From an uncultured Lachnospiraceae bacterium (GTDB lineage Bacteria > Bacillota > Clostridia > Lachnospirales > Lachnospiraceae): a stretch of DNA of 64,000 nucleotides. The notes below the pieces were generated by a model. That model saw only the letters and a program-made list of their open reading frames with translations, was not told where the DNA came from and made no database searches. The DNA lies in contig CACYTU010000013.1 in assembly GCA_902777355.1 (NCBI GenBank), positions 1-64,000 of the forward strand. Direction: 5' to 3'. Below are positions 38,077 through 50,237 of this stretch, one piece after another; position 1 is the first letter of the stretch; every line of letters begins with the position of its first letter. Both the position numbers and the translations under genes were made by a program.

Positions 38077-41000
38077 ATGGATACACGAATCGAACTGCAG
38101 AAAAATGACAGGCTGTTATTTCCCGGCATGGAATGTACCATTGACCATTCGGTCGGGCGGGGGTCCAATGTCATCGCCTATGTCGGGCATTACAGAGACC
38201 ATCAGAATCCTTCTCTTTCTCACAGTCCTGATCCGGGAGCTTTTTCCTTATGACCGGGAAGGCGGAATATGGAGAAGTCCCGACGGGGACATTCATGTTG
38301 AAAGTGGTGCGGGTTCAATCTATGAACTGAACAGGATGACCTTTCTGAGGGGAAATGAAGTTCATATCCGCCTGCTGGAAAAAATTCCCGCGGACATGGA
38401 TGTCAATATCAACACATATGAATATCACAACACGCTGTACAGTCTGGTGGGATATACCGGAGGGCGGAATCTGAATGAGGAGCTCGACAGGGCGCAGTGG
38501 CAGGACCGGGGTGCCGGCGGCACGGAGCTGCTTCTGCATACGGTCCGGATCATCAAGGGCGCGCTGGATGTACTGCAGTCCTTCCATCAGGCCGGCTATC
38601 TGCACCTCGACATCAGCCCGGACAATATCCTGCTGATCGGAGAGGGGGAGAAAGAGCGTGTGACACTGATCGACTACAACAGTGTTCACACGATGGATGA
38701 AATAAGGCAAAAGAACTCTGTCTACTACAGTATAAAAGAGGGATTCACAGCTCCGGAGGTCCGGATGGGCAGATTCTCCAGGATCGGGGAGTGGACAGAC
38801 CTGTACTCCCTGACTGCCGTGCTCTATGTATGCCTGACAGGCAGAAAGCTGACTCCCCTGCAGATGACAGGCAATTCCCCGGTCAGCCTTGACCCCGCCG
38901 AATTCCCTTTTCTGAAGGAATGTCCGGAGACAGTCTTGTCCCTGCTGCGCCGGATTCTGCGCCGGGGCATTGAGATCACACCGCGCAGAAGATATCAAAA
39001 CGCGGAGCAGATGCGCGCGGATATCTCGGAACTGGAAGACAGGATCCTGGGCAGGGGCATTACCCACTGGGCTCTGTGGGAAGCCGGCCGTGCCCGCATC
39101 AGGCGTTCACTGAGCGAAAATCCCGCTCTGGACTATCTGCGGGATGAAAAAAGAATTTATCCCCTTTATGCCATGTCGGAAGAGGGGGAAAAGATTCCCC
39201 TGCTTCCCGGGGCAGGCAGCGCACCCTTCCATCCTTTCGGGAGAGGCGGCTCACCCCACACACCCATTCTGCTTCTGGGGGGAGGCGGCACGGGCAAGAC
39301 GACGACGCTGCTGCGCATTGCCTGCGGACAGGACAGGAGATATACTCCTGCCTCAGCAGTTGTCTACTATATATCTCTGTATGGGTACAGGAATAAGGAA
39401 CAGAATTATATCTGCGACAGGCTTTTGGAGAGCCTGAAATTCAAGCCTCACACCGACAGCATGGAGAGTGCCCGCAGGGAACTGATACAGCTTCTGGACA
39501 GGCCGGCCGGGGGACGGACACTGCTTCTTCTGGATGGCCTCAATGAGGCGGCCGGAGACACCGGACCGCTCCTTGAAGAGATCAGCAGGTTCTCCGGTCT
39601 TGCCGGCCTGCAGGTCATCCTTACCAGTCGGACCGATCCGGGTCTCGCCGGTTACCGCAAGCTGACCCTCTGCCGCCTGGAACAGGAAGAAGTCAAAAGA
39701 ATCCTGTCCGGAGAAGGGATCCTGCCTCCGGAAAACATGGAGGTTTTTGACCTGCTGACATTTCCTATGCTGCTGGCCATGTATATCAGGACAGTTCAGA
39801 GCAGGGAACATCAGGTCCGGCCCGACAGCCGGGATCAGCTCATCACAGGATATCTCGCGGCCATTCTGGAAAAAGAAAAAAGAAATCTGCCGCAGGAAAA
39901 CAGCTTTTCCATGGGCTGTGAAGCGGCTGTCCGCTATCTTCTTCCGGAAATCGCCGGCCTGGCAAGTCAGAAAAAACATGCGCTGTCCGGCCGGGAACTG
40001 CGGCCGCTCGTCGAAGCATGCTTTGGGGAATTATCCAAAAGGACGATCACAACGGTCTATCCGGACTGGATCGGGCACACGGCGGACCTTCGATTCGGCG
40101 CAAAGACCGCAGATGAGTGGTACGGCATCGCTGTCCTGGATCTCCTGTGGAAGCGCCTGGGTTTCCTGGTCAGGGATGAGCAGGGAAATTTCAGGATCCT
40201 TCATCAGATGATCGAGGACTATCTGGCGGAGAAAAGCCGGCAGTTTCACAAAGAATTTGACCGGGAGAAGCGCCGTGAAAAGACCCTCAGGGGATTTTTC
40301 CTTCTGTGCGCGGGCATATTCCTGGTTTCGGCAATCGTCGGTTACACCTCTTTCATGAATGCGCAGCTGGCAGCCAGGCGCCGCGAGATCATACAGAAGG
40401 ACACGGAGACTCTGGTCAGTATGAGTGAGACCGCACTCGAACAGGGAAAGCGGTATGAAGCCAAGGAGGCCGCCATGCAGGCACTGCCGGCAGAAGACCC
40501 GGACCGCCCGGCCACCACAAAAGCCCAGCATGCGTTGGCTTCTTCCCTTCTGGCCTATCAGGCCCCGGAATACCGGCTGATCAGTTCAATCGATCTTCCG
40601 GCAGAGTTAAAACAGGCGGCAGTTTCTGAATCCGGAAGATATCTGGCTGTCGTTGATGAGTTGGACGTTTTACGCTGCTATGACGGAAATAAGGGCACGG
40701 TCCTCTGGGAAAAAACAGACATGGCTGAAGGGTCGCCAGGTCCATTCTACGTCCTGGAAGACACAGGGGGCATTCTGGCGGTCGGGAAGAACCATCTCGT
40801 ACTGTACTCCCTCCGGGACGGCAGCATCAAATGGAAAATAGACTGTGGAATAAACGACTTGTATCTGGATGGAGAAAACCTTCTGGTCCTTGAGGAATAC
40901 AAGGAAGAAAAAGAAGACAAGGAAAACAAAGAAGGAAAAGACGACAAGGAAAAGTGGCTATTCCATACATTCAGGACCGCAACAGGAGAGGAGACGGCTC

Positions 41001-43222
41001 CGGCCGTGAGCTTTGCCCCCGGCTGGGGGGATGAATATTTGAACATACCCGGAACGGGCGGTTTCGTTCAATATTCAGATTCTTTAACCTGTTTTATCAA
41101 TTACCGTGTTTATGAAAACAATGATGCCCCCGCCGCGTTTCTGGACTGGATCAACACCGCTACAGGAGAATGTGTGCGGTCAGTTGCTTTACCCATAGGA
41201 GAAGGCGAAGTCAGCTCTTTCTATAACCTGAATACCAGTGGGATCAATATGAAGTATATTGCACCTGACCGGAAGACATGGGAAAAAGGGGGACTTTTTG
41301 TCTGTATGGCTTGTCCCCGTCCATTAAAAAATCCTGAGCTGATCTACGGATTCGTGGAGGACGGAAGCGACAGTTTCAAATATTCCGGACGAATCGAAAC
41401 GGATTTTTTCAATCTGCCTGACGCTGAACCCCGGATTCCGCAAATGAATGTCCCGGTTGTTCTGGAATTATCCAGTGGAAGAATTATGATCCTGTACGGA
41501 GGAAATGACATTACCATAGAAAGAAAAGACGGCAGGGAGTTTGTACGGAAACTGCCGCTCATAAATGAGAATTACATGTATACGGGTCAGATATTTCCAG
41601 GCAGCGATGTGATTGCATACAGATTTCAGGAAGATCCATTCCGGCTTTTTGTTTTATATAATGATGGAACCGCAGAGTCTTCCTCCCGGGCAGGCGGGAA
41701 TATTCGTCTGCCGGATACGTGTATAGCGAAGACTTCCGCTGCCGGCATGTTCAATGCATATGGCCTGTGCAGCAATCCCGACGCGGGTTCCACTGTGGCA
41801 GATAGCCTTGAAAAATATGGTGCCGCTTTCTGCCTGGTTCCGTCCTCGGACCAGAGAAAAATCTATATCGTCGGATATGCAGGAGACCGGAACGGAGTGT
41901 CCATGTCGAACATCTCTTTTGACAGCGATTGTTTCCCGGGCAGTCACCTCGAGCCTACAGGCAAAAAAATGCTATGGCACGAAGTCCTGGATTCCCGCGC
42001 TGATATAAAGCATGATGATCTCACGGGGCAGAATCTCTTTCTTTTCCCTGAGCAGGGGATTCTTGCGGCGATGGGAGAGATCGGGGAGATGATCCTGATA
42101 GAAGATGCCGATTATTCTGTGAGCATTTCTGACCTCAGGGACCTGTCGGTATCAAAGAAGTACTATTTCTCTTTTCCGGATGAATACAGCGAAATCTGCG
42201 GAATTTCCGAAGACGGAAAAACCCTGTATTTCAAAGATTTCTCTCTTGATCTGGAAAGCGGAGAAAGAACAGAGTTCGCGGGAAACGGCACGGTGCCTGA
42301 TGATTCAGATTCTGTTTCAAATCCCGGTGATGATGCTTATTCTGTTGATGATGCCGGGCAGATTATCTTTTCGAAAAAACAATTTATTTGTGAAGACAGC
42401 GAACAGTTATATTCATTAGAAGACGGAAAATGGGAACTTGAAAATGAAGACGGCTGGGACGGGGAAAATCTGCACTGGATCTTTGACGGAAAAATTCATA
42501 CTGTAAGTATGCTTCATGAAGGCGGGAATATACTTGACCATCGCGTGCTGGAACATGAGCTGCATCATTATTATTCACTGCATGATATTGTGTCCGGAGA
42601 CAACGGTCTTCTTTTTGTCAGATGCACCGGCCGTGAAAAAGGAGACGCTGATCTTTCAGACGTTGAGTATTTTATGGCCTACTCTTTGGAAACCGGACAG
42701 TGGACACGGATTGACATTCCCGCGCTTTATCAGGGTAGGATCATGCCTTATCCCGCAAAAAGCAGCAAGTGGTTTGCGGTGGCCTGTGGTGACAATATAC
42801 TTCGGATTTACGATTTTGAAAAAGGTGAGTTTATCCGGCAGTGTTCCGGAACAGTCTACAGTGCGGATATCCAGAACATGGAATTTGTGATGGAAGACAG
42901 GTATCTGGCGGTCTGGGGCAAAAATGACGTGTCTGTCTTCGACACATCCACCGGCGACCGCCTTTTCTACAGAAAAGCAGGCACAAACACTATTGTGGAT
43001 GATACACTGTCCCTGAAGGTTTATGAGGACGGCGAAGACCTGTATTTCACGGGCAAAACAGGTTTCTGCCTGGATACGGAGGAATGGGAAATCAGGTATG
43101 ATATCCCGTGGCTGGCAGCGGTGACGGACGACTGGATCTTCACACAGGAAGGAACTGTGATTACCCGATATCCCAAATATACCCTGCAGGACTTGATTCA
43201 GGCAGGGCGGGAAGAAGAGTGA
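38077..43222 (+). CDS. Protein kinase-NACHT-transmembrane-beta-propeller protein, 5' end frameshifted
   Basis: The true start appears to be the ATG at 38077 (CAGGAG upstream), giving MDTRIELQKNDRLLFPGMEC and a Gly-rich loop SVGRGSNVIAYVG. That frame stops at 38251, while the rest of the kinase (VLIRELFPYDREGG...) continues in the next frame; one extra base near 38224 explains it. Downstream are HLDISPDNILL (catalytic loop), LIDYNS (DFG position), a NACHT-type NTPase with Walker A GGGGTGKTTTL (39271) and Walker B LLLLDGLNEA (39521), one membrane helix (40300-40350, FFLLCAGIFLVSAIVG), and about 870 residues of WD40/PQQ-like propeller. The VAIK lysine position is Arg. Kinase-STAND-propeller proteins are candidate sensors with an effector domain, including antiviral ones; the function here is not known. 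Two WYL proteins follow. Confidence 0.8.
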
Positions 43223-43549: not shown

Positions 43550-44752
43550 ATGGCTTACAGCGAACTGATCAAAAACTTCAGCCGGATCCGGGCTTATCTG
43601 CGCTCCTTTTATGTCTACGGTTTCAGGCACCGCAATGAGTTTACCCAGAAGAGCGCGCGAAGCTATGACAATGAGCGCAGGCGGGTCGAGAGCTGGCTGG
43701 GTGACTATATGTCATTCGGCCGTGACGCGGAGGGACGCCGCGTATTCTTATCCGTGGACAGCAGGGCCATAAAGGAAAACCCCCTTTACAGAGCCTTCCG
43801 GGCCAAAAGCTTCACGGACCGGGACATCACCCTGCATTTTCACATTCTGGATATTCTGAAGGTTACGGGCGGACAATCCATCACAGAAATAATGGACGAG
43901 TTGTCGAACCGGATGTCAGAGTTTGAAAACGATGAACTTCCGGACGAATCCACTATAAGAAAAAAGCTCAGGGAGTATATCTCCCTTGGCCTGATCGAAA
44001 TGAAAAAACGCGGAAGGGAGACGGTTTATACGCTAAGTGAGGACCACATCGATTTCTCCTCCTGGGATGCGGCGGCGGCTTTTTTCTCGGAAGCCTCGCC
44101 GCTGGGTGTGGTCGGTTCCTTTTTACAGGACCGCCTGCCGGGGAAATTTGATAAGTTCCGTTTCAAGCACCATTATATCCTGAACGCTCTGGACAGTGAG
44201 ATCCTGTACGAACTGTTTTCGGCAATCGGGGAAAGCCGGTTGATCACATTTACTTCCCGAAAGCAGCGCACGACTGCTTTACCCTTGAAGGTGTACATTG
44301 GAACCCAGACGGGCAGGCAGTACCTTCTTGCCTGGTCCCCTGTAAAAGAAGGATTTTTCTTCCACCGCGCTGACCTGATTGACAGCGTTAAAGCAGGTGA
44401 TATCTTTCCTTTTCCGGAAGCCCAGAAAAAACGTCTGGACGAATTCTGTTCCTTTGCATGGGGCGTGACCGGCAATAATCACACCCGCCTGGAACATATC
44501 GAGATGACGGTTTTCGCCGGACCTGAAGAAGGACATATCGTCGAAAGACTGGAGAGAGAAAAAAGATGCGGCAGAGTGGAAAAGCTGGATGACAGCCACT
44601 GGAAATTTACCGCGGATGTTTATGAAGCCTTTGAGATGCTGCCCTGGCTGCGGACATTTACCGGACGGGTCACAGATCTTCAGTGCACAGACAAACGCGT
44701 TATCAATCGATTCTGGAAAGACTTTCACGAAATGATGCAAATGTATGAATAA
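43550..44752 (+). CDS. WYL-domain transcriptional regulator-like protein 1
   Basis: 400 residues. An N-terminal region (SYDNERRRVESWLGDY) resembles the winged-helix part of WYL proteins, and DILKVTGGQSITEIMDEL plus STIRKKLREYISLGLIEMKK looks like a second DNA-binding winged helix. The WYL region spans about 215-300 (ITFTSRKQRTTALPLKVYIG, RQYLLAWSPVKEGFFFHRAD), followed by the C-terminal extension domain. WYL proteins bind nucleotides or nucleic acids and often control defence or stress genes. The gene is followed closely by a second WYL gene, a conserved tandem arrangement in Lachnospiraceae-type genomes (from memory). Start ATG at 43550 after AAGGTGGG. A ligand cannot be named. Confidence 0.82.
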   Translation: MAYSELIKNFSRIRAYLRSFYVYGFRHRNEFTQKSARSYDNERRRVESWLGDYMSFGRDAEGRRVFLSVDSRAIKENPLYRAFRAKSFTDRDITLHFHILDILKVTGGQSITEIMDELSNRMSEFENDELPDESTIRKKLREYISLGLIEMKKRGRETVYTLSEDHIDFSSWDAAAAFFSEASPLGVVGSFLQDRLPGKFDKFRFKHHYILNALDSEILYELFSAIGESRLITFTSRKQRTTALPLKVYIGTQTGRQYLLAWSPVKEGFFFHRADLIDSVKAGDIFPFPEAQKKRLDEFCSFAWGVTGNNHTRLEHIEMTVFAGPEEGHIVERLEREKRCGRVEKLDDSHWKFTADVYEAFEMLPWLRTFTGRVTDLQCTDKRVINRFWKDFHEMMQMYE

Positions 44753-44983
44753 ACAGCGAGCAAGCGGCCGCAAATGCCGAGCTCGCTCGAGCATTTGCGG
44801 ACATTTGCGAGCGCCCACACATGAGCATAGAGATATTTTTTGCACAAAATGTGCAAAAAAGATCGGGATGCGAATGTGTGGAGCGATGCGAGAGCTCGCA
44901 AGAGCGGAGCAGCGCGTAGTTTATTCATACATGCTTATAAACAGCGAGCAAGCGGCCGCAAATGCCGAGCTCGCTCGAGCAAG
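44749..44983 (+). repeat. Two 45-bp direct repeats, 188 bp apart, the first containing a stop codon
   Basis: ATAAACAGCGAGCAAGCGG with CCGCAAATGCCGAGCTCGCT follows at 44749 and 44937. The first starts with the TAA of WYL gene 1. Between them are inverted segments (GAGCTCGC, TTTTGCACAAAATGTGCAAAA, and TAGTTTATTCATACAT, which is the inverse of the WYL gene end). The short ORFs here are artefacts. Confidence 0.82.
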
Positions 44984-45027
44984 CTACTGCCAGGACATGG
45001 GTACAAGCAGGAAAGGAGATGCCGGCA

Positions 45028-45984
45028 ATGCTCTTTCATGAAATATACAGCAGTTATTATCTTGCTGCCGCCTCCATACTCAGAGAGGCGGTGCGCGGCA
45101 GGCTTACTGGAAAGGAAATGAATGCCCTTGTGCAGAAGCATGCCTTTGGTGAGAGTCTGCTGACGATCCCTGACGGGCTGAAGGGAGGAAAATGGAGACT
45201 GCTTCACAAGGATTTCTCCACGCCTCTTGAAGAGGAGCCCTCCATGCCGCTGACAAAGCTGGAAAAGCGCTGGATGAAATCCCTTCTGCTTGACCCGAGG
45301 ATTCAGCTGTTCAGACCGGATATGACAGGTCTGGAGGATGTCGATCCCCTGTTCACGCCTGACACGGTCGTTTATTATGACAGGTATTCAGACGGCGATG
45401 ACTATCAGAATCCCGACTACATCCGCCACTTTGGCACGATCCTCCGTGCGCTCAGGGAAAACCGGAATCTCTATATAAGCTTTGAATCCAGGCGGCTTGC
45501 CCAGCCAAAGCTGGTCGTGACGCCGCAATACCTGGAATATTCCGAAAAGGATGACCGGTTCCGGCTGGTAGCGGCAGGCCGCAGGCGGCGCTGGGTCATC
45601 AATCTGTCCCGGATTACGGCCTGCGAACCCGCATACAGCAACGAAACAATACCGCTGAAAGAGGCCCCCTCCAGGACGATTACTTTTGAACTTGAGGACC
45701 GCCGCAATGCCATGGAGCGCGTGCTCCTGCATTTTTCCCATCTGGAGAAGGAAACAAAAAAACTGGACGACCGCAGATACCGGGTCACACTCAAATACGA
45801 TAGCAATGATGAGACAGAGATGGTGATCAGGATACTCTCATTCGGGGCAGCAATCAAAGTGACAGAACCCGAGAGTTTTATCGCTCTCCTCAGAGAGAGG
45901 ATTGAAAAGCAAAAACAGTTGGCGGTCATTACCCCTGAAACGCTTAAAGGAGAAGCAAAAACAGCTGGCAGTCATTTCCCCTGA
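45028..45984 (+). CDS. WYL-domain protein 2, C-terminus altered by a tandem duplication
   Basis: 318 residues from the ATG at 45028, which follows AAAGGAGATG. N-terminal helical domain (LFHEIYSSYYLAAASILREA), then LLLDPRIQLF, and a WYL core at about 140-215 (ILRALRENRNLYISFESRR, VTPQYLEYSEKDDRFRLVAAG, RWVINLSRITACEP). The C-terminal WCX-like domain follows (RNAMERVLLHFSHLEKE). It is the partner of WYL protein 1. The last residues are read out of frame: a 46-bp duplication makes the frame continue as GEAKTAGSHFP, while the second copy still encodes KQKQLAVISPETLK with TAA at 45995 in the ancestral frame. The change probably has little effect on fold. Confidence 0.82.
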   Translation: MLFHEIYSSYYLAAASILREAVRGRLTGKEMNALVQKHAFGESLLTIPDGLKGGKWRLLHKDFSTPLEEEPSMPLTKLEKRWMKSLLLDPRIQLFRPDMTGLEDVDPLFTPDTVVYYDRYSDGDDYQNPDYIRHFGTILRALRENRNLYISFESRRLAQPKLVVTPQYLEYSEKDDRFRLVAAGRRRRWVINLSRITACEPAYSNETIPLKEAPSRTITFELEDRRNAMERVLLHFSHLEKETKKLDDRRYRVTLKYDSNDETEMVIRILSFGAAIKVTEPESFIALLRERIEKQKQLAVITPETLKGEAKTAGSHFP

Positions 45985-47533: not shown

Positions 47534-47875
47534 TTTTTCGGCCTTTTTACATGATCTTTTTTGCTTCTTTTTCAGTCCTGCCTTTTTTAAGAATCCTGTC
47601 CGAATTATGCAATCCAGCCTGAATCCGTCAAACCCATCTGAATTGCACTTCCCTTCCTGAATTATAAACCCGGCCCGGATCCGGCGATTCAATCTGAATT
47701 GTGCAGCCCCGCTTTACTTATGTGCTCTGCCTGAATCCGGCGATTCGGCCTGAAAGATGCAAAGCGGCATACAATTGAGGATTTTTTCTAAAAAACTCTG
47801 ATATGCGTTAGTTCGCAACTTTTTTGCCGGGAAGTCTGCCGCGGGACATGGTATCTTACAATTACCGAAAGGAAA
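47534..47875. other. Non-coding region before the RNA array
   Basis: Contains degenerate repeats of CCTGAATCCG/GGCGATTC (47620-47750). TTGAGG at 47776 with TGATATG 18 bp later is a possible weak promoter for the RNA array. ACAATTACCG at 47859 foreshadows the CAATTAC motif found in the RNAs downstream. No gene seen. Confidence 0.4.
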
Positions 47876-47989
47876 AAAGCACATACAGCAATTACCAAAA
47901 CCCACTCACGGTACAATTACAGGTTCGAGTCCTGTCAGCATCGGAAGATGCTGTGGTGAAACAGGTTATCACGGTTAAAAATGTGCTTT
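47876..47989 (+). ncRNA. RNA A: closed-stem RNA containing a circularly permuted tRNA-like fold
   Basis: The ends pair perfectly (AAAGCACAT 47876-47884 with ATGTGCTTT 47981-47989). Inside, in order: a T-arm ACAGG-TTCGAGT-CCTGT (47919-47935); a 7-bp acceptor-like stem CAGCATC/GATGCTG closed by a GGAA loop (47936-47953); T and G in the places of U8 and N9; a D-arm GTGA-AACAGGTTA-TCAC (47956-47972) with G18G19 and flanking A14/A21; then GGTT, which can pair with AACC (47899-47902) as an anticodon-stem remnant. So the tRNA parts are present but in permuted order, T-arm before D-arm, with the acceptor end sealed. Bacterial YrlA RNAs that partner Ro60-like proteins use the same design. The identification as a Y-like RNA is inference. 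Confidence 0.72.
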
Positions 47990-47995
47990 GTATCC

Positions 47996-48068
47996 GGCCC
48001 GGCAGCTCAATTGGCTGAGCAACTGACTGTCTCTCAGAAGGATGTGGGTTCGAGTCCCATCCGGGTCG
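47996..48068 (+). tRNA. RNA B: tRNA-like gene with anticodon GUC (Asp by position), atypical
   Basis: A complete cloverleaf can be drawn: acceptor GGCCCGG/CCGGGTC with one G-U; D-arm GCTC-AATTGGCT-GAGC; anticodon arm ACTGA-CTGTCTC-TCAGA; 5-nt variable loop; T-arm GTGGG-TTCGAGT-CCCAT; discriminator G. Oddities: C instead of U at position 8, an A-A mismatch at the top of the anticodon stem, U at position 37 instead of a purine, and no encoded CCA. These make it doubtful as a working tRNA-Asp and better described as tRNA-like. It starts 6 nt after RNA A. Confidence 0.6.
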
Positions 48069-48084
48069 TTACCGCATTACTGGT

Positions 48085-48205
48085 GTGGTAAGACATATAC
48101 AGTAGTAAGACATCTTCAGTAATAAGACATCTTCTACAGTAAGATTTTTGCAGCAATAAGACATTTTGCAGCTGTAAGAAAACTGCAGCAGCAAGACATC
48201 TGCAG
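48085..48205 (+). repeat. Degenerate short tandem repeats inside the RNA array
   Basis: About six copies of a CAGTAATAAGACATCTT-like unit of 17-24 bp, progressively diverged (CAGTAGTAAGACAT, CAGCAATAAGACATTT, CAGCAGCAAGACATCT). They fill the gap between RNA B and RNA C. A hairpin AATGGATC/GATCCATT lies further on at 48221-48246. Confidence 0.75.
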
Positions 48206-48280
48206 AGCGGGCGGACAGAGTAATGGATCACGATGCCGGATCCATTGTCCCGGGGCCCGAAGCCTGTCAGAAACAAATAT

Positions 48281-48514
48281 GCATCTGTAACTCAATTGGC
48301 AGAGCGGCGGTCGTTTCTGGTCACAGCCTGATCAGGCTGTGACCAGAAACTCCACAAATGCCCATTCCAAATCCCCTTCGGGGATGGGCATTTGCCCCTG
48401 AACTCGGGTTTTCGCGCAAAAAATGCGCGAAAACGCCTCGAGACTGGAGCGTAAGTGATTTGTGGCTAATAGCCTCTAAACCGTAAAGTGCAGGTTCGAA
48501 GCCTGCCAGATGCA
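48281..48514 (+). ncRNA. RNA C: tRNA-like RNA with a 168-nt structured insert in the anticodon arm
   Basis: Acceptor GCATCTG (48281-48287) pairs perfectly with CAGATGC (48507-48513); U8, a D-arm ACTC-AATTGGCA-GAGC with A14, G18G19 and A21; T-arm GCAGG-TTCGAAG-CCTGC; 5-nt variable loop; anticodon stem GCGGT (48307-48311) with ACCGT (48480-48484). Instead of a 7-nt loop there are 168 nt containing a perfect 36-nt palindrome (48314-48349), a 10-bp stem AAATGCCCAT/ATGGGCATTT capped by a C(UUCG)G tetraloop, a 10-bp stem GTTTTCGCGC/GCGCGAAAAC, and CCACAAAT/ATTTGTGG closing them. No conserved group I core (P7) was recognised. It may be an intron, an expanded arm of a stable RNA, or a palindromic insertion into a tRNA. 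No CCA is encoded. Confidence 0.7.
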
Positions 48515-48518
48515 CGCA

Positions 48519-48625
48519 AAGGCACGTACAGCAATTACAATCATGCAGATACCTTTTAAGTATTGTAAGTGCGGCTTCGGGGTTACTGCGACAAACCGCA
48601 AGCTGCGAGCAGAACAACGTGCCTT
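48519..48625 (+). ncRNA. RNA D: second closed-stem RNA related to RNA A
   Basis: Ends AAGGCACGT (48519-48527) and ACGTGCCTT (48617-48625) pair perfectly. Compared with RNA A the stem has two compensatory changes (A-U to G-C at pair 3 and pair 8), and the 11 nt after the 5' strand, ACAGCAATTAC, are identical in both. The interior differs: possible hairpins ATAC/GTAT with a 7-nt loop and TGCGG/CCGCA, but no T-loop consensus, so tRNA mimicry is not claimed. It ends 5 nt before RNA E, as RNA A ends 6 nt before RNA B. Confidence 0.65.
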
Positions 48626-48630
48626 GGCCT

Positions 48631-48702
48631 GGCTCCTTGGTCTAATGGAAGCGACATCAGGTTCTCAGCCTGAAAATGTGAGTTCGATCCTCACAGGAGT
48701 CA
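48631..48702 (+). tRNA. RNA E: tRNA-Glu(CUC)-like gene
   Basis: Acceptor GGCTCCT/AGGAGTC (one G-U), U8, D-arm GTCT-AATGGAAG-CGAC (three pairs and one mismatch), anticodon arm TCAGG-TTCTCAG-CCTGA with anticodon CUC, 4-nt variable loop, T-arm GTGAG-TTCGATC-CTCAC and discriminator A. CCA is not encoded (ACTGG follows). The GGCTCCT-TGGTC start is like genuine bacterial tRNA-Glu, so this one may be functional, but its place in the array beside RNA D suggests a role linked to the downstream DUF2828 gene. Confidence 0.7.
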
Positions 48703-48782
48703 CTGGAAGCCCGTAGCTTTAATCATGCATGTTTGTGAAAAGCTGATCATGGGCACAAATTTTTAAGAAAGGAGAGAATATC

Positions 48783-50237
48783 ATGCTGAATTTTCTGAAG
48801 AAGACTGCAAATCGTACTTTTACTGAGAACGGCGCAGTGACATACCGCAGCACTGGTTCCGAGTGTCTGAACCTGTTCGCGACAATTGGTGCTCTGCGTA
48901 CAGCCGGCGATTCTGTGATCCAGAACCGTTTCCTGCGCGCATATGCTGAGAATCCTGATCTGGCGATGAAGATTCTCTTCTATGCCCGCGACATTCGGGG
49001 CGGCCTCGGTGAGCGTGCAGTGTTCCGCACCCTGATCAAGTGGCTGGCAGTAAATGAGAAGCCGTCACTGGTACGGAACCTTCCCTATATTGCTGAGTAT
49101 GGCCGATGGGATGACATCCTTGTCCTTCTGGACACTCCGGCACGACAGGAGGCGGAGGCTGTACTGTTCAAGCAGTTCCTGGCAGACATGGAGGCACTGG
49201 AGAATGAGGGCCAGGTCTCTCTGCTCGGCAAGTGGCTGCCGTCTGTGAACGCTTCCAACAAGGAGACTGTCCGCATGGCAAAGCAGCTTGCGCGCACCTT
49301 CGGTATGAATGATGCTGCGTACCGCAAGGCTCTGTCCGCCCTTCGCGCTCAGATCCGCATCCTTGAGAACAACCTGCGCGAGATGGACTACAGCTTCGAC
49401 TATGCAAAGCAGCCCTCCAAGGCTATGTTCAAGTACCGCCGTGCCTTTATGCGCAACGACAAGCAACGCTATCAGCTGTTCATGACACGGGTGAAGAAGG
49501 GCCAGGCAGTTCTGCATACAGGCACACTGATGCCTTATGAGATTGTAACTTCCGCCTACACCGCTTCTGAGCATGAGCGTGAGGCTCTGGATGTGACATG
49601 GCAGGCGCTGGAGGACTTTACAAACAACGAGAACGCGCTTGTTGTCGCGGACGGCTCCGGCTCCATGTACTGCTATGGCAGCCCTAAGCCTGCGGCAGTT
49701 GCCCAGTCCCTGGCGATTTATTTCGCGGAGCGCAACCGCGGCGCCTTCCACAACCACTTTATCACTTTCTCTATGACACCGCAGCTTGTGGAGATTAAGG
49801 GCAGGGATATTGTGGAGAAGGTTCGTTACTGCCGCTCCTTCAATGAGGTTGCCAACACAGATCTTCAGGCTGTATTCAAGTTGATTCTGTCTACAGCTGT
49901 GAAGTACCGCTTGCCTCAGAAGGATCTGCCCTCCACTTTGTACATTGTGACCGACATGGAGTTTGACTCGTGCGCGCGCGGCGCGTCACTCACAAACTTT
50001 GAGAAGGCGAAGGCGCTGTACCGCAAGCACGGCTACAAGCTGCCCAGGGTCGTGTTCTGGAATGTACAGTCCCGCAACAGCCAGCAGCCTGTAAAGCAGA
50101 ACGAGCAGGGTGTGGCACTGGTCTCCGGCTGTACTGCAAGGATTTTCTCGCAGGTGATGAGCGGCCACATGGACCCCTATACAAACATGATGAATGTGAT
50201 CGGCAGCGAGCGCTACCAGGTCATCCGAGCCGGCTGA
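48783..50237 (+). CDS. DUF2828 protein: helical RNA-binding-type region plus vWA domain (Ro60-like architecture)
   Basis: 484 residues, ATG after AAGAAAGGAGAG. The N-terminus carries the DUF2828 hallmark TFTENGAVTYRSTGSECLNL, then KILFYARDIRGGLGERAVF and YIAEYGRWDDILVLL, a HEAT-like helical region of about 280 residues. From residue 283 there is a von Willebrand A domain with an intact MIDAS: VVADGSGSM (DxSxS, about 289), Thr in ANTDLQ (about 358) and Asp in IVTDMEFD (about 389). This two-part layout matches TROVE/Ro60 proteins, which form a ring that binds misfolded RNAs and Y RNAs. Biochemical function of DUF2828 is not established as far as I know. It follows the array of tRNA-like RNAs by 80 nt and probably shares their transcript; a hairpin (GCCC..AGCTTT/AAAGCT..GGGC) lies between. 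Confidence 0.85.
   Translation: MLNFLKKTANRTFTENGAVTYRSTGSECLNLFATIGALRTAGDSVIQNRFLRAYAENPDLAMKILFYARDIRGGLGERAVFRTLIKWLAVNEKPSLVRNLPYIAEYGRWDDILVLLDTPARQEAEAVLFKQFLADMEALENEGQVSLLGKWLPSVNASNKETVRMAKQLARTFGMNDAAYRKALSALRAQIRILENNLREMDYSFDYAKQPSKAMFKYRRAFMRNDKQRYQLFMTRVKKGQAVLHTGTLMPYEIVTSAYTASEHEREALDVTWQALEDFTNNENALVVADGSGSMYCYGSPKPAAVAQSLAIYFAERNRGAFHNHFITFSMTPQLVEIKGRDIVEKVRYCRSFNEVANTDLQAVFKLILSTAVKYRLPQKDLPSTLYIVTDMEFDSCARGASLTNFEKAKALYRKHGYKLPRVVFWNVQSRNSQQPVKQNEQGVALVSGCTARIFSQVMSGHMDPYTNMMNVIGSERYQVIRAG

Follow-up and report, generated by a model that had tools for sequence, protein, structure and literature searches.

The 64,000-nucleotide stretch of DNA analyzed here (the window; positions 1 to 64,000 of contig CACYTU010000013.1, assembly GCA_902777355.1, from an uncultured Lachnospiraceae bacterium) contains five structured RNAs, RNAs A to E, that lie head to tail on the forward strand at 47876-48703 and precede a DUF2828 open reading frame (ORF) at 48783-50237. 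This layout was described in the original prediction, which read the locus as a parallel to the system of the Ro60 protein and its Y RNAs, and our analysis confirms it. RNAs B and E are the only two of the five that ARAGORN and Rfam recognize. RNA A starts with AAAGCACATACAGCAATTAC and RNA D with AAGGCACGTACAGCAATTAC, and the first nine bases of each RNA pair with its last bases. The 9-bp closing stem of RNA A encloses a core of T-arm, acceptor hairpin and D-arm, and RNA D combines a closing stem of the same kind with the anticodon hairpin GATAC-CTTTTAA-GTATT. RNAs A and D belong to one family with a common closing motif, hereafter the closed-stem RNAs. This family is tied to DUF2828 genes, and many of its members have tRNA-like interiors.

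The tie to DUF2828 was analyzed in 81 bacterial loci, namely the window and 80 fetched loci whose proteins are 58-91% identical (the top 80 of 146; viral loci L087-L094 are excluded from the bacterial counts). A detector of the closed stem (AAR-N5, one or two bases, ACAGCR, then the complementary arm and G) gave 143 matches within 2.6 kb upstream of the 81 genes (190,795 bases), in 69 of the 81 loci. These matches do not reflect chance, because the opposite strand gave none and each of 20 first-order shuffles gave 0-4. By this detector, a locus has one to seven copies at varying distances, and the gene together with the next 4 kb has nine matches, six of which lie directly behind DUF2828. The bare motif ACAGCAA occurs upstream 167 times on the coding strand versus 14 times on the other strand. 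The downstream complement of the arm that precedes it is present in 87 of the 167 cases, whereas an arm-swapped control gave a mean of 5.0 (maximum 11), and 23 different six-mers take part in the pairing. The same test gave 1/14 on the other strand and 5/33 in the gene and downstream. A test of the inner six bases of the stem is in line with these values (112/142 versus 7.8, maximum 16). Furthermore, the narrow pattern AAGGCAC-NN-ACAGCAA-N50-80-GTGCCTTG is found in 4 of the 299 genomes of the window's taxonomic family, and all four carry DUF2828, with the pattern 0.1-1.5 kb upstream of the gene. DUF2828 is present in 32 of the 299 genomes, and a random draw would yield four carriers in four with a chance of ~1e-4. 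The RNAs of the window do not fit this narrow pattern.

The closed-stem RNAs also show paired base changes. An alignment of 12 A-type RNAs (10 bacterial and 2 phage) has 20 consensus pairs, 13 of which have both partners changed in one or more sequences: four belong to the eight pairs of the closing stem, and the rest are located in the T-arm, acceptor hairpin and D-arm. D-type RNAs vary less, with both-side changes in 3 of 25 pairs. Covariance models were built from the A-type RNAs (R1) and from 13 D-type RNAs (R2), and RNA D was in the training set of R2 but not of R1. R1 was searched over both strands of 93 sources (81 bacterial and 12 phage; 971,310 bases; the E-values are rough). At E<=0.1, R1 gave 185 matches and R2 gave 113, all on the DUF2828 strand. 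Among the 173 R1 matches from outside the training set, 156 lie within 2.6 kb upstream and 6 just behind the DUF2828 gene. At E<=0.01, 113 R1 matches are retained, including 101 non-training matches, of which 93 are upstream at a distance of up to 2.6 kb and 4 directly follow the gene. An R1 match is present in 59/81 bacterial and 8/12 phage sources at E<=0.01 and in 75/81 and 8/12 at E<=0.1. R1 was also run over 56 further sources, where at E<=0.01 it matched 11 of 12 DUF2828 loci at 52-62% identity and 10 of 17 at 36-46%; two rRNA loci gave no match. Conserved RNAs upstream of DUF2828 in other genomes, as the original prediction expected, were found by the closed-stem detector and by both models.

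Are these RNAs separate molecules, or are they 5' leader structures that sense tRNA to control DUF2828 expression? A leader would fit the upstream, same-strand position of most R1 matches, and a T-box-like logic would account for the tRNA-like parts. However, copies also occur just behind the gene, their number and distance vary from locus to locus, whole tRNA genes lie between them, and closed ends mark stand-alone RNAs. We thus regard a cis-regulatory leader as very improbable.

The 484-aa product of the window ORF carries DUF2828 and DUF7788 (Pfam). Its AlphaFold2 model (pLDDT 91.7) is Ro60-like along nearly the whole length, as judged by Foldseek and VIA-align, and consists of a helical-repeat ring closed by a vWA domain. 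The Ro60 layout of helical repeats and vWA domain that had been proposed from the sequence is recovered in the model. Residues D290, S292, S294, T359 and D391, which we take to be the positions of the metal ion-dependent adhesion site (MIDAS), are invariant across 50 aligned sequences. The model shares its fold with Ro60/TROVE proteins (Xenopus Ro60, 1yvr/2i91; Deinococcus Rsr, 2nvo; Thermus phage phiLo, 9l5y) over up to 416 of 484 residues, but the identity in structural alignments is 9-18%. The Pfam TROVE profile PF05731 has no match in the window protein at E<=0.01, and an NCBIfam search gave nothing above cut-off. That the protein and the closed-stem RNAs form a functional pair is very likely, and the protein would bind the RNAs via the stem and the adjoining motif.

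How do the closed-stem RNAs relate to known Y RNAs? Bacterial Ro60/Y RNA systems have been described in few model systems, usually with one or two RNAs. RNA A had been predicted to be YrlA-like, and this holds for its permuted tRNA core, which is present in the A-type alignment and is matched by the Rfam YrlA model, but the score of 23.8 bits does not reach the cut-off of 69. The permuted core is found in the A-type RNAs; RNA D and most other closed-stem RNAs are without it. No TROVE gene was found among 299 genomes from the family of the window, and 7 of 391 genomes from its class have one. R1 finds an RNA beside the TROVE gene in 7/7 TROVE loci (L178-L184), with a best E per locus of 1.5e-5 to 1.4e-3. 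A closing stem is combined in these RNAs with T-arm, acceptor hairpin and D-arm, and three of them carry the Lys-type anticodon hairpin TCGC-CTTTTAA-GCGA. The motif that follows the stem is TACTTCG in 8/8 TROVE-side RNAs listed and ACAGCAA in the DUF2828-side RNAs, and the closed-stem detector found no ACAGC closed stem in the seven TROVE loci. Because R1 matches the TROVE-side RNAs, the YrlA model meets the RNA A core and the motifs differ, the two groups have a common architecture and different presumed protein-binding motifs. In comparison with YrlA and bacterial Y RNAs (RF02553), the DUF2828-side RNAs share the closed ends and, in the A-type, the permuted core, but they differ in their motif, in their many copies per locus and in their interiors, which span anything from a bare anticodon hairpin to a complete tRNA and include a likely piece of 23S rRNA.

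The stem and the ACAGC motif recur in phages. DUF2828 is present in 681 of 50,697 phage records; it is labeled 'Ro-like RNA binding protein' in mycobacteriophage records and 'RNA-binding protein' in PHROG 850. In 19 phage regions, 17 closed stems are located on the DUF2828 strand and none on the other, versus 0-2 in shuffles. They occupy 10 of the 19 regions, two of which are from near-identical phages, and the permuted type occurs in Bacillus phages. In the Listeria phages LP-048 and CKA15, a 7-bp version of the detector finds three closed stems directly before DUF2828, with tRNAs around the gene and a tRNA ligase (RtcB) behind it. The accessible part of the CKA15 paper (PMC12282133, 2025) reports the CKA15_055 protein in virions and its HHPred match to Rsr, together with very abundant upstream transcripts of CKA15_059-061, and guesses at Rsr and Y RNAs. 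CKA15_055 and the mycobacteriophage 'Ro-like RNA binding protein' belong to the same protein family as the window DUF2828. The statement in the original prediction that DUF2828 has no established role must therefore be qualified, given that the Ro60-likeness was already hinted at in annotation and in the accessible text of this one paper. We considered CKA15_059-061 as closed-stem RNAs and rejected them, as their coordinates give a different region from the three stems directly upstream of the gene. Their region (L192 4050-4600) folds strongly (300 nt at -65 kcal/mol, calculated without a shuffle control), and a closed-stem RNA of this kind is absent from it.

In addition to the stem, many closed-stem RNAs have parts that resemble tRNA. 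When T-arm loops were excluded and RNAs above 135 nt dropped (163 of 168 kept), an anticodon-type hairpin was present in 62/163 RNAs versus 3.9 (maximum 9) in shuffles, and the classical loop CTNNNAA was present in 33 loops versus 0.1. The anticodons are Lys (13), Met (10), Arg (7), Asp (5), Asn, Phe, Ile and Leu (4 each) and others (1-2 each). A T-arm hairpin was found in 49/138 RNAs versus 1.2 in the control (RNAs above 130 nt dropped, 138 of 143 kept). An earlier anticodon count that included T-arm loops (72/138) was discarded as inflated, and its reverse-complement control (40) was invalid, since CTNNNAA and its complement both pass.

Two closed-stem RNAs, at loci L064 (-339 from the gene start) and L043 (-130), contain a stretch identical to Oscillibacter 23S rRNA at 21/21 and 19/21 bases, respectively. 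The stretch corresponds to E. coli 1942-1962, which is presumably helix 71, and the two RNAs likely copy this helix. In both, a GAAATT stretch after the copy resembles, by eye, the neighboring 23S rRNA in permuted order. A search against E. coli rRNA at E<=0.1 showed no clear excess: the plus strand gave matches for 13 RNAs, the minus strand for 3 and shuffled sequences for 8. Against the Oscillibacter rRNA operon at E<=0.01, the values were 15, 1 and 0-3; nearly all of these matches correspond to the tRNAs of the operon, and 23S helix 71 is the sole standout rRNA site. Searches with rRNA families in 13 relatives found 23S in none and 16S pieces in two. Mimicry of 16S rRNA by the recurrent GAACCTTA stretch was a by-eye impression that was not established.

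The arrays also contain tRNA genes. ARAGORN identified 58 tRNAs upstream of DUF2828 genes, all on the strand of the gene, of which 16 are embedded in closed-stem RNAs (Met 8, Leu 4, others 4) and 42 are free (Lys 13, Glu 10, Asp 6, Arg 5, Asn 3, others 5). The free tRNAs include no Ala, Val, Pro, Thr, Ser, Cys or Phe. The U33 or purine-37 rule is broken in 12/58 array tRNAs versus 0/34 genomic tRNAs of the window's genome, a control that leans to good tRNAs, as it was taken from the top-scoring 30 among 47 tRNA sites. RNA B has the anticodon loop CTGTCTC versus CTGTCAC in the genome's other tRNA-Asp. RNA C is called by no program, and its acceptor, D- and T-arms match, by eye, the array tRNA-Lys(CUU) of L012, L015 and L028; the insert in its anticodon loop (~190 nt) folds into strong hairpins. 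This insert may represent a small mobile insertion or an element similar to an intron. The segment between RNAs B and C (48080-48200) shows, by eye, degenerate repeats built around TAAGACATCTTC(A)GTAA. Altered anticodon loops are also a feature of the nuclease-evading phage tRNAs described in the accessible part of PMC10264068, but the DUF2828 arrays are bacterial and tied to a Ro60-like protein. The true tRNA genes, and the location of DUF2828 in tRNA arrays of several phages, might be taken as a plain cluster of codon-supply, phage-derived or decayed tRNAs next to an unrelated vWA gene. However, decay would not produce both-side changes in 13/20 pairs, including four of eight in the closing stem, or recurrence in phages, and the anticodon set of the 42 free tRNAs is narrow. 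A plain tRNA cluster is thus almost certainly not the explanation.

Several features of the genomic context recur among the loci. The element TTCGCANCTTTTTT is present upstream in 56/78 loci (3 of the 81 loci, with <400 upstream bases, were dropped), versus 5/78 on the opposite strand and 1/78 in the gene and 4 kb downstream. In 25 of 49 measured cases, the distance from its start to the following closed-stem RNA is 55-67 nt, and a -10-like box lies in the interval (by eye); by eye, boxes similar to the TACAAT of the window stand at the same place in many loci. The element is lacking in most Butyrivibrio and some other loci. A sigma-54 promoter was dropped as a candidate, as its GG-N10-GC spacing was seen by eye on the opposite strand only. 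An RtcB cluster, identified by PF01139 in its L049 member, occurs in 31/81 bacterial loci, always on the DUF2828 strand (25 directly behind the gene, 5 up to 1.6 kb upstream and 1 at 4.3 kb), and RlaP, an RNA-repair nucleotidyltransferase, occurs in 6 loci. WYL-type clusters are found upstream in 43 of the 60 loci that have at least 4 kb there, the window not being among the 60. One member of each of three WYL-type clusters was tested with Pfam, and one fell below cut-off: the L080 ORF scored 18.2 bits for WYL (cut-off 21.8), and its cluster is present in 38 loci, mostly upstream. These clusters suggest a control other than RtcR and sigma-54, RtcR not having been searched by profile. In the Salmonella rsr-yrlBA-rtcBA operon, according to the accessible part of PMC7790460, a Ro60-like protein, tRNA-like RNAs and RtcB are likewise combined, as in the 31 DUF2828 loci. 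However, in place of the RtcR and sigma-54 of that operon the DUF2828 loci have a different promoter element and genes of the WYL type (no search was aimed at RtcA or RtcR), and they also differ by their RNA arrays and extra tRNAs.

The corresponding features of the window are given in Table 1. Between its two WYL-type genes, Rfam places a Clostridiales-1 RNA (RF01699, 44748-44925, 95.4 bits). Just upstream of these genes, 38105-43222 encodes a 1705-aa protein that matches kinase and NACHT and, weakly, propeller families and looks like a STAND-type conflict protein.

Table 1. Features of the DUF2828 locus and its upstream region in the window
Feature	Position	Strand	Basis
Likely WYL-type regulator	43550..44752	+	no Pfam match itself; by eye homologue of L080 ORF
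WYL/WCX-type regulator	44962..45984	+	Pfam WCX 1.6e-06; L007 homologue in a cluster spanning 27 loci
Conserved promoter element TTCGCAACTTTTTTGCCGGGAA, likely activator site	47812..47833	+	upstream element found across loci
TACAAT, -10-like box 5' of RNA A	47857..47862	+	read from sequence
RNA A: closed-stem RNA, permuted tRNA core (T-arm, acceptor hairpin, D-arm)	47876..47990	+	alignment A4; Rfam YrlA 23.8 bits
RNA B: tRNA-Asp(GUC)-like, anticodon loop CTGTCTC (U at 37)	47995..48069	+	ARAGORN, Rfam
RNA C: Lys(CUU)-type array tRNA, anticodon loop split by hairpin-rich insert	48281..48514	+	by eye; fold
RNA D: closed-stem RNA, Lys(UUU)-type anticodon hairpin	48519..48626	+	matched by models R1 and R2; alignment A3
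RNA E: tRNA-Glu(CUC)	48631..48703	+	ARAGORN, Rfam
DUF2828/DUF7788 protein, predicted Ro60-like fold, MIDAS positions intact	48783..50237	+	Pfam; AlphaFold2; Foldseek, VIA-align

What is the biological function of this array? These observations support the original reading of a parallel Ro60/Y-RNA-like system, and DUF2828 may act in RNA quality control and tRNA surveillance. We propose that the window probably encodes a second kind of Ro60-Y RNA particle, in which DUF2828 would hold the stem and ACAGCAA and the tRNA-like interiors would serve as baits in a response to tRNA damage. According to this model, tRNA-cutting enzymes from rivals, phages or the cell's own toxin systems would damage tRNAs, and a WYL regulator would sense the damage and fire the TTCGCAACTTTTTT promoter. 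The array transcript would then be cut into closed-stem RNAs and tRNAs. DUF2828 rings would be loaded with closed-stem RNAs, whose tRNA-like interiors could lure the enzyme off the real tRNAs. The extra tRNAs, mostly Lys, Glu, Asp, Arg and Asn and some with altered anticodon loops, would replenish the pool, and RtcB, if present, would reseal broken RNAs. Three points favor baits: variable interiors are combined with a constant stem, anticodon loops of tRNAs that are common targets of attack occur often, and free tRNAs with altered loops accompany the RNAs. The commonly attacked targets are in part covered by the accessible text of PMC10264068. A more far-reaching form of the bait model is possible but tentative: the arrays may be a bait library on a Ro60-like ring, in which each RNA presents another cut site of tRNA- or ribosome-cutting enzymes (Lys, Arg, Asp, Asn, Tyr and Met anticodon loops; 23S helix 71), the interiors change in an arms race, the ring-binding stem stays fixed, and phages use the library against their hosts.

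Several observations weigh against the proposed particle and its bait role. The anticodon tally counts related RNAs separately, and its Lys share comes partly from one lineage, the RNA D type. The anticodon hairpin is missing in 101/163 closed-stem RNAs, and 60/138 have neither this hairpin nor a T-arm, so baiting with tRNA parts is not the whole story. In the accessible part of PMC7790460, Salmonella YrlA is not cut by an anticodon nuclease, and the authors raise competitive inhibition with tRNA. RtcB is absent from the fetched stretch of 50/81 bacterial loci, including the window, several stretches being truncated. At the level of the protein, hhalign against seven TROVE proteins aligns the vWA part alone (probability 65, E 6e-5). 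R1 is not fully specific, as a few partial matches in the 93-source search are ordinary tRNAs, 3 of 16 tRNA loci among the further sources are cross-matched at E<=0.01, and a full-length match at L146 (E 0.001) spans two tandem tRNAs whose end and start mimic the permuted order. The same genome has two further DUF2828 genes (L134 on contig C107 and L135 on contig C83; 40% and 45% identity) without recognizable closed-stem RNAs or R1 matches. In addition, 9/19 phage regions are without a closed stem by the stricter detector; one of them, LP-048, has three by the 7-bp version. Therefore, a DUF2828 protein can exist without closed-stem RNAs, or with unrecognized ones.

A serious rival to baiting is an adaptor model, in which the RNAs are gates or tethers, as the Y RNA tethers Rsr to PNPase in Deinococcus, and the tRNA-like part docks RtcB, modification or decay enzymes on the DUF2828 ring for repair or decay of damaged RNAs. 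Such a role agrees with the Ro60-like fold and the YrlA-like core of the A-type RNAs, as in known tether and gate systems, with the RtcB and RlaP neighbors and with the many RNAs that are devoid of an anticodon hairpin. However, a single adaptor would suffice, whereas the loci have up to seven closed-stem RNAs with unlike interiors, which better fit diversifying targets. We therefore consider the adaptor model less likely, and retain the bait-carrying particle as our preferred reading.

Related scaffolds with tRNA-like RNAs may reportedly have been described by Burroughs and Aravind in 2016. In our searches of Rfam and the literature (bioRxiv not covered), we found neither the ACAGCAA closed-stem family nor arrays of dissimilar Y-type RNAs described, and no account that links them to DUF2828. 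The system described here would constitute a large second branch of Ro60/Y RNA systems in both bacteria and phages, distinguished by a separate protein family and by an RNA family that has many members and changes fast. DUF2828 thereby gains a testable function, and Rfam gains a candidate new family. Furthermore, the question of why Y RNAs mimic tRNAs becomes directly testable, because each locus provides a natural series of mimics. Plant papers mention DUF2828, and the question may therefore reach plants.

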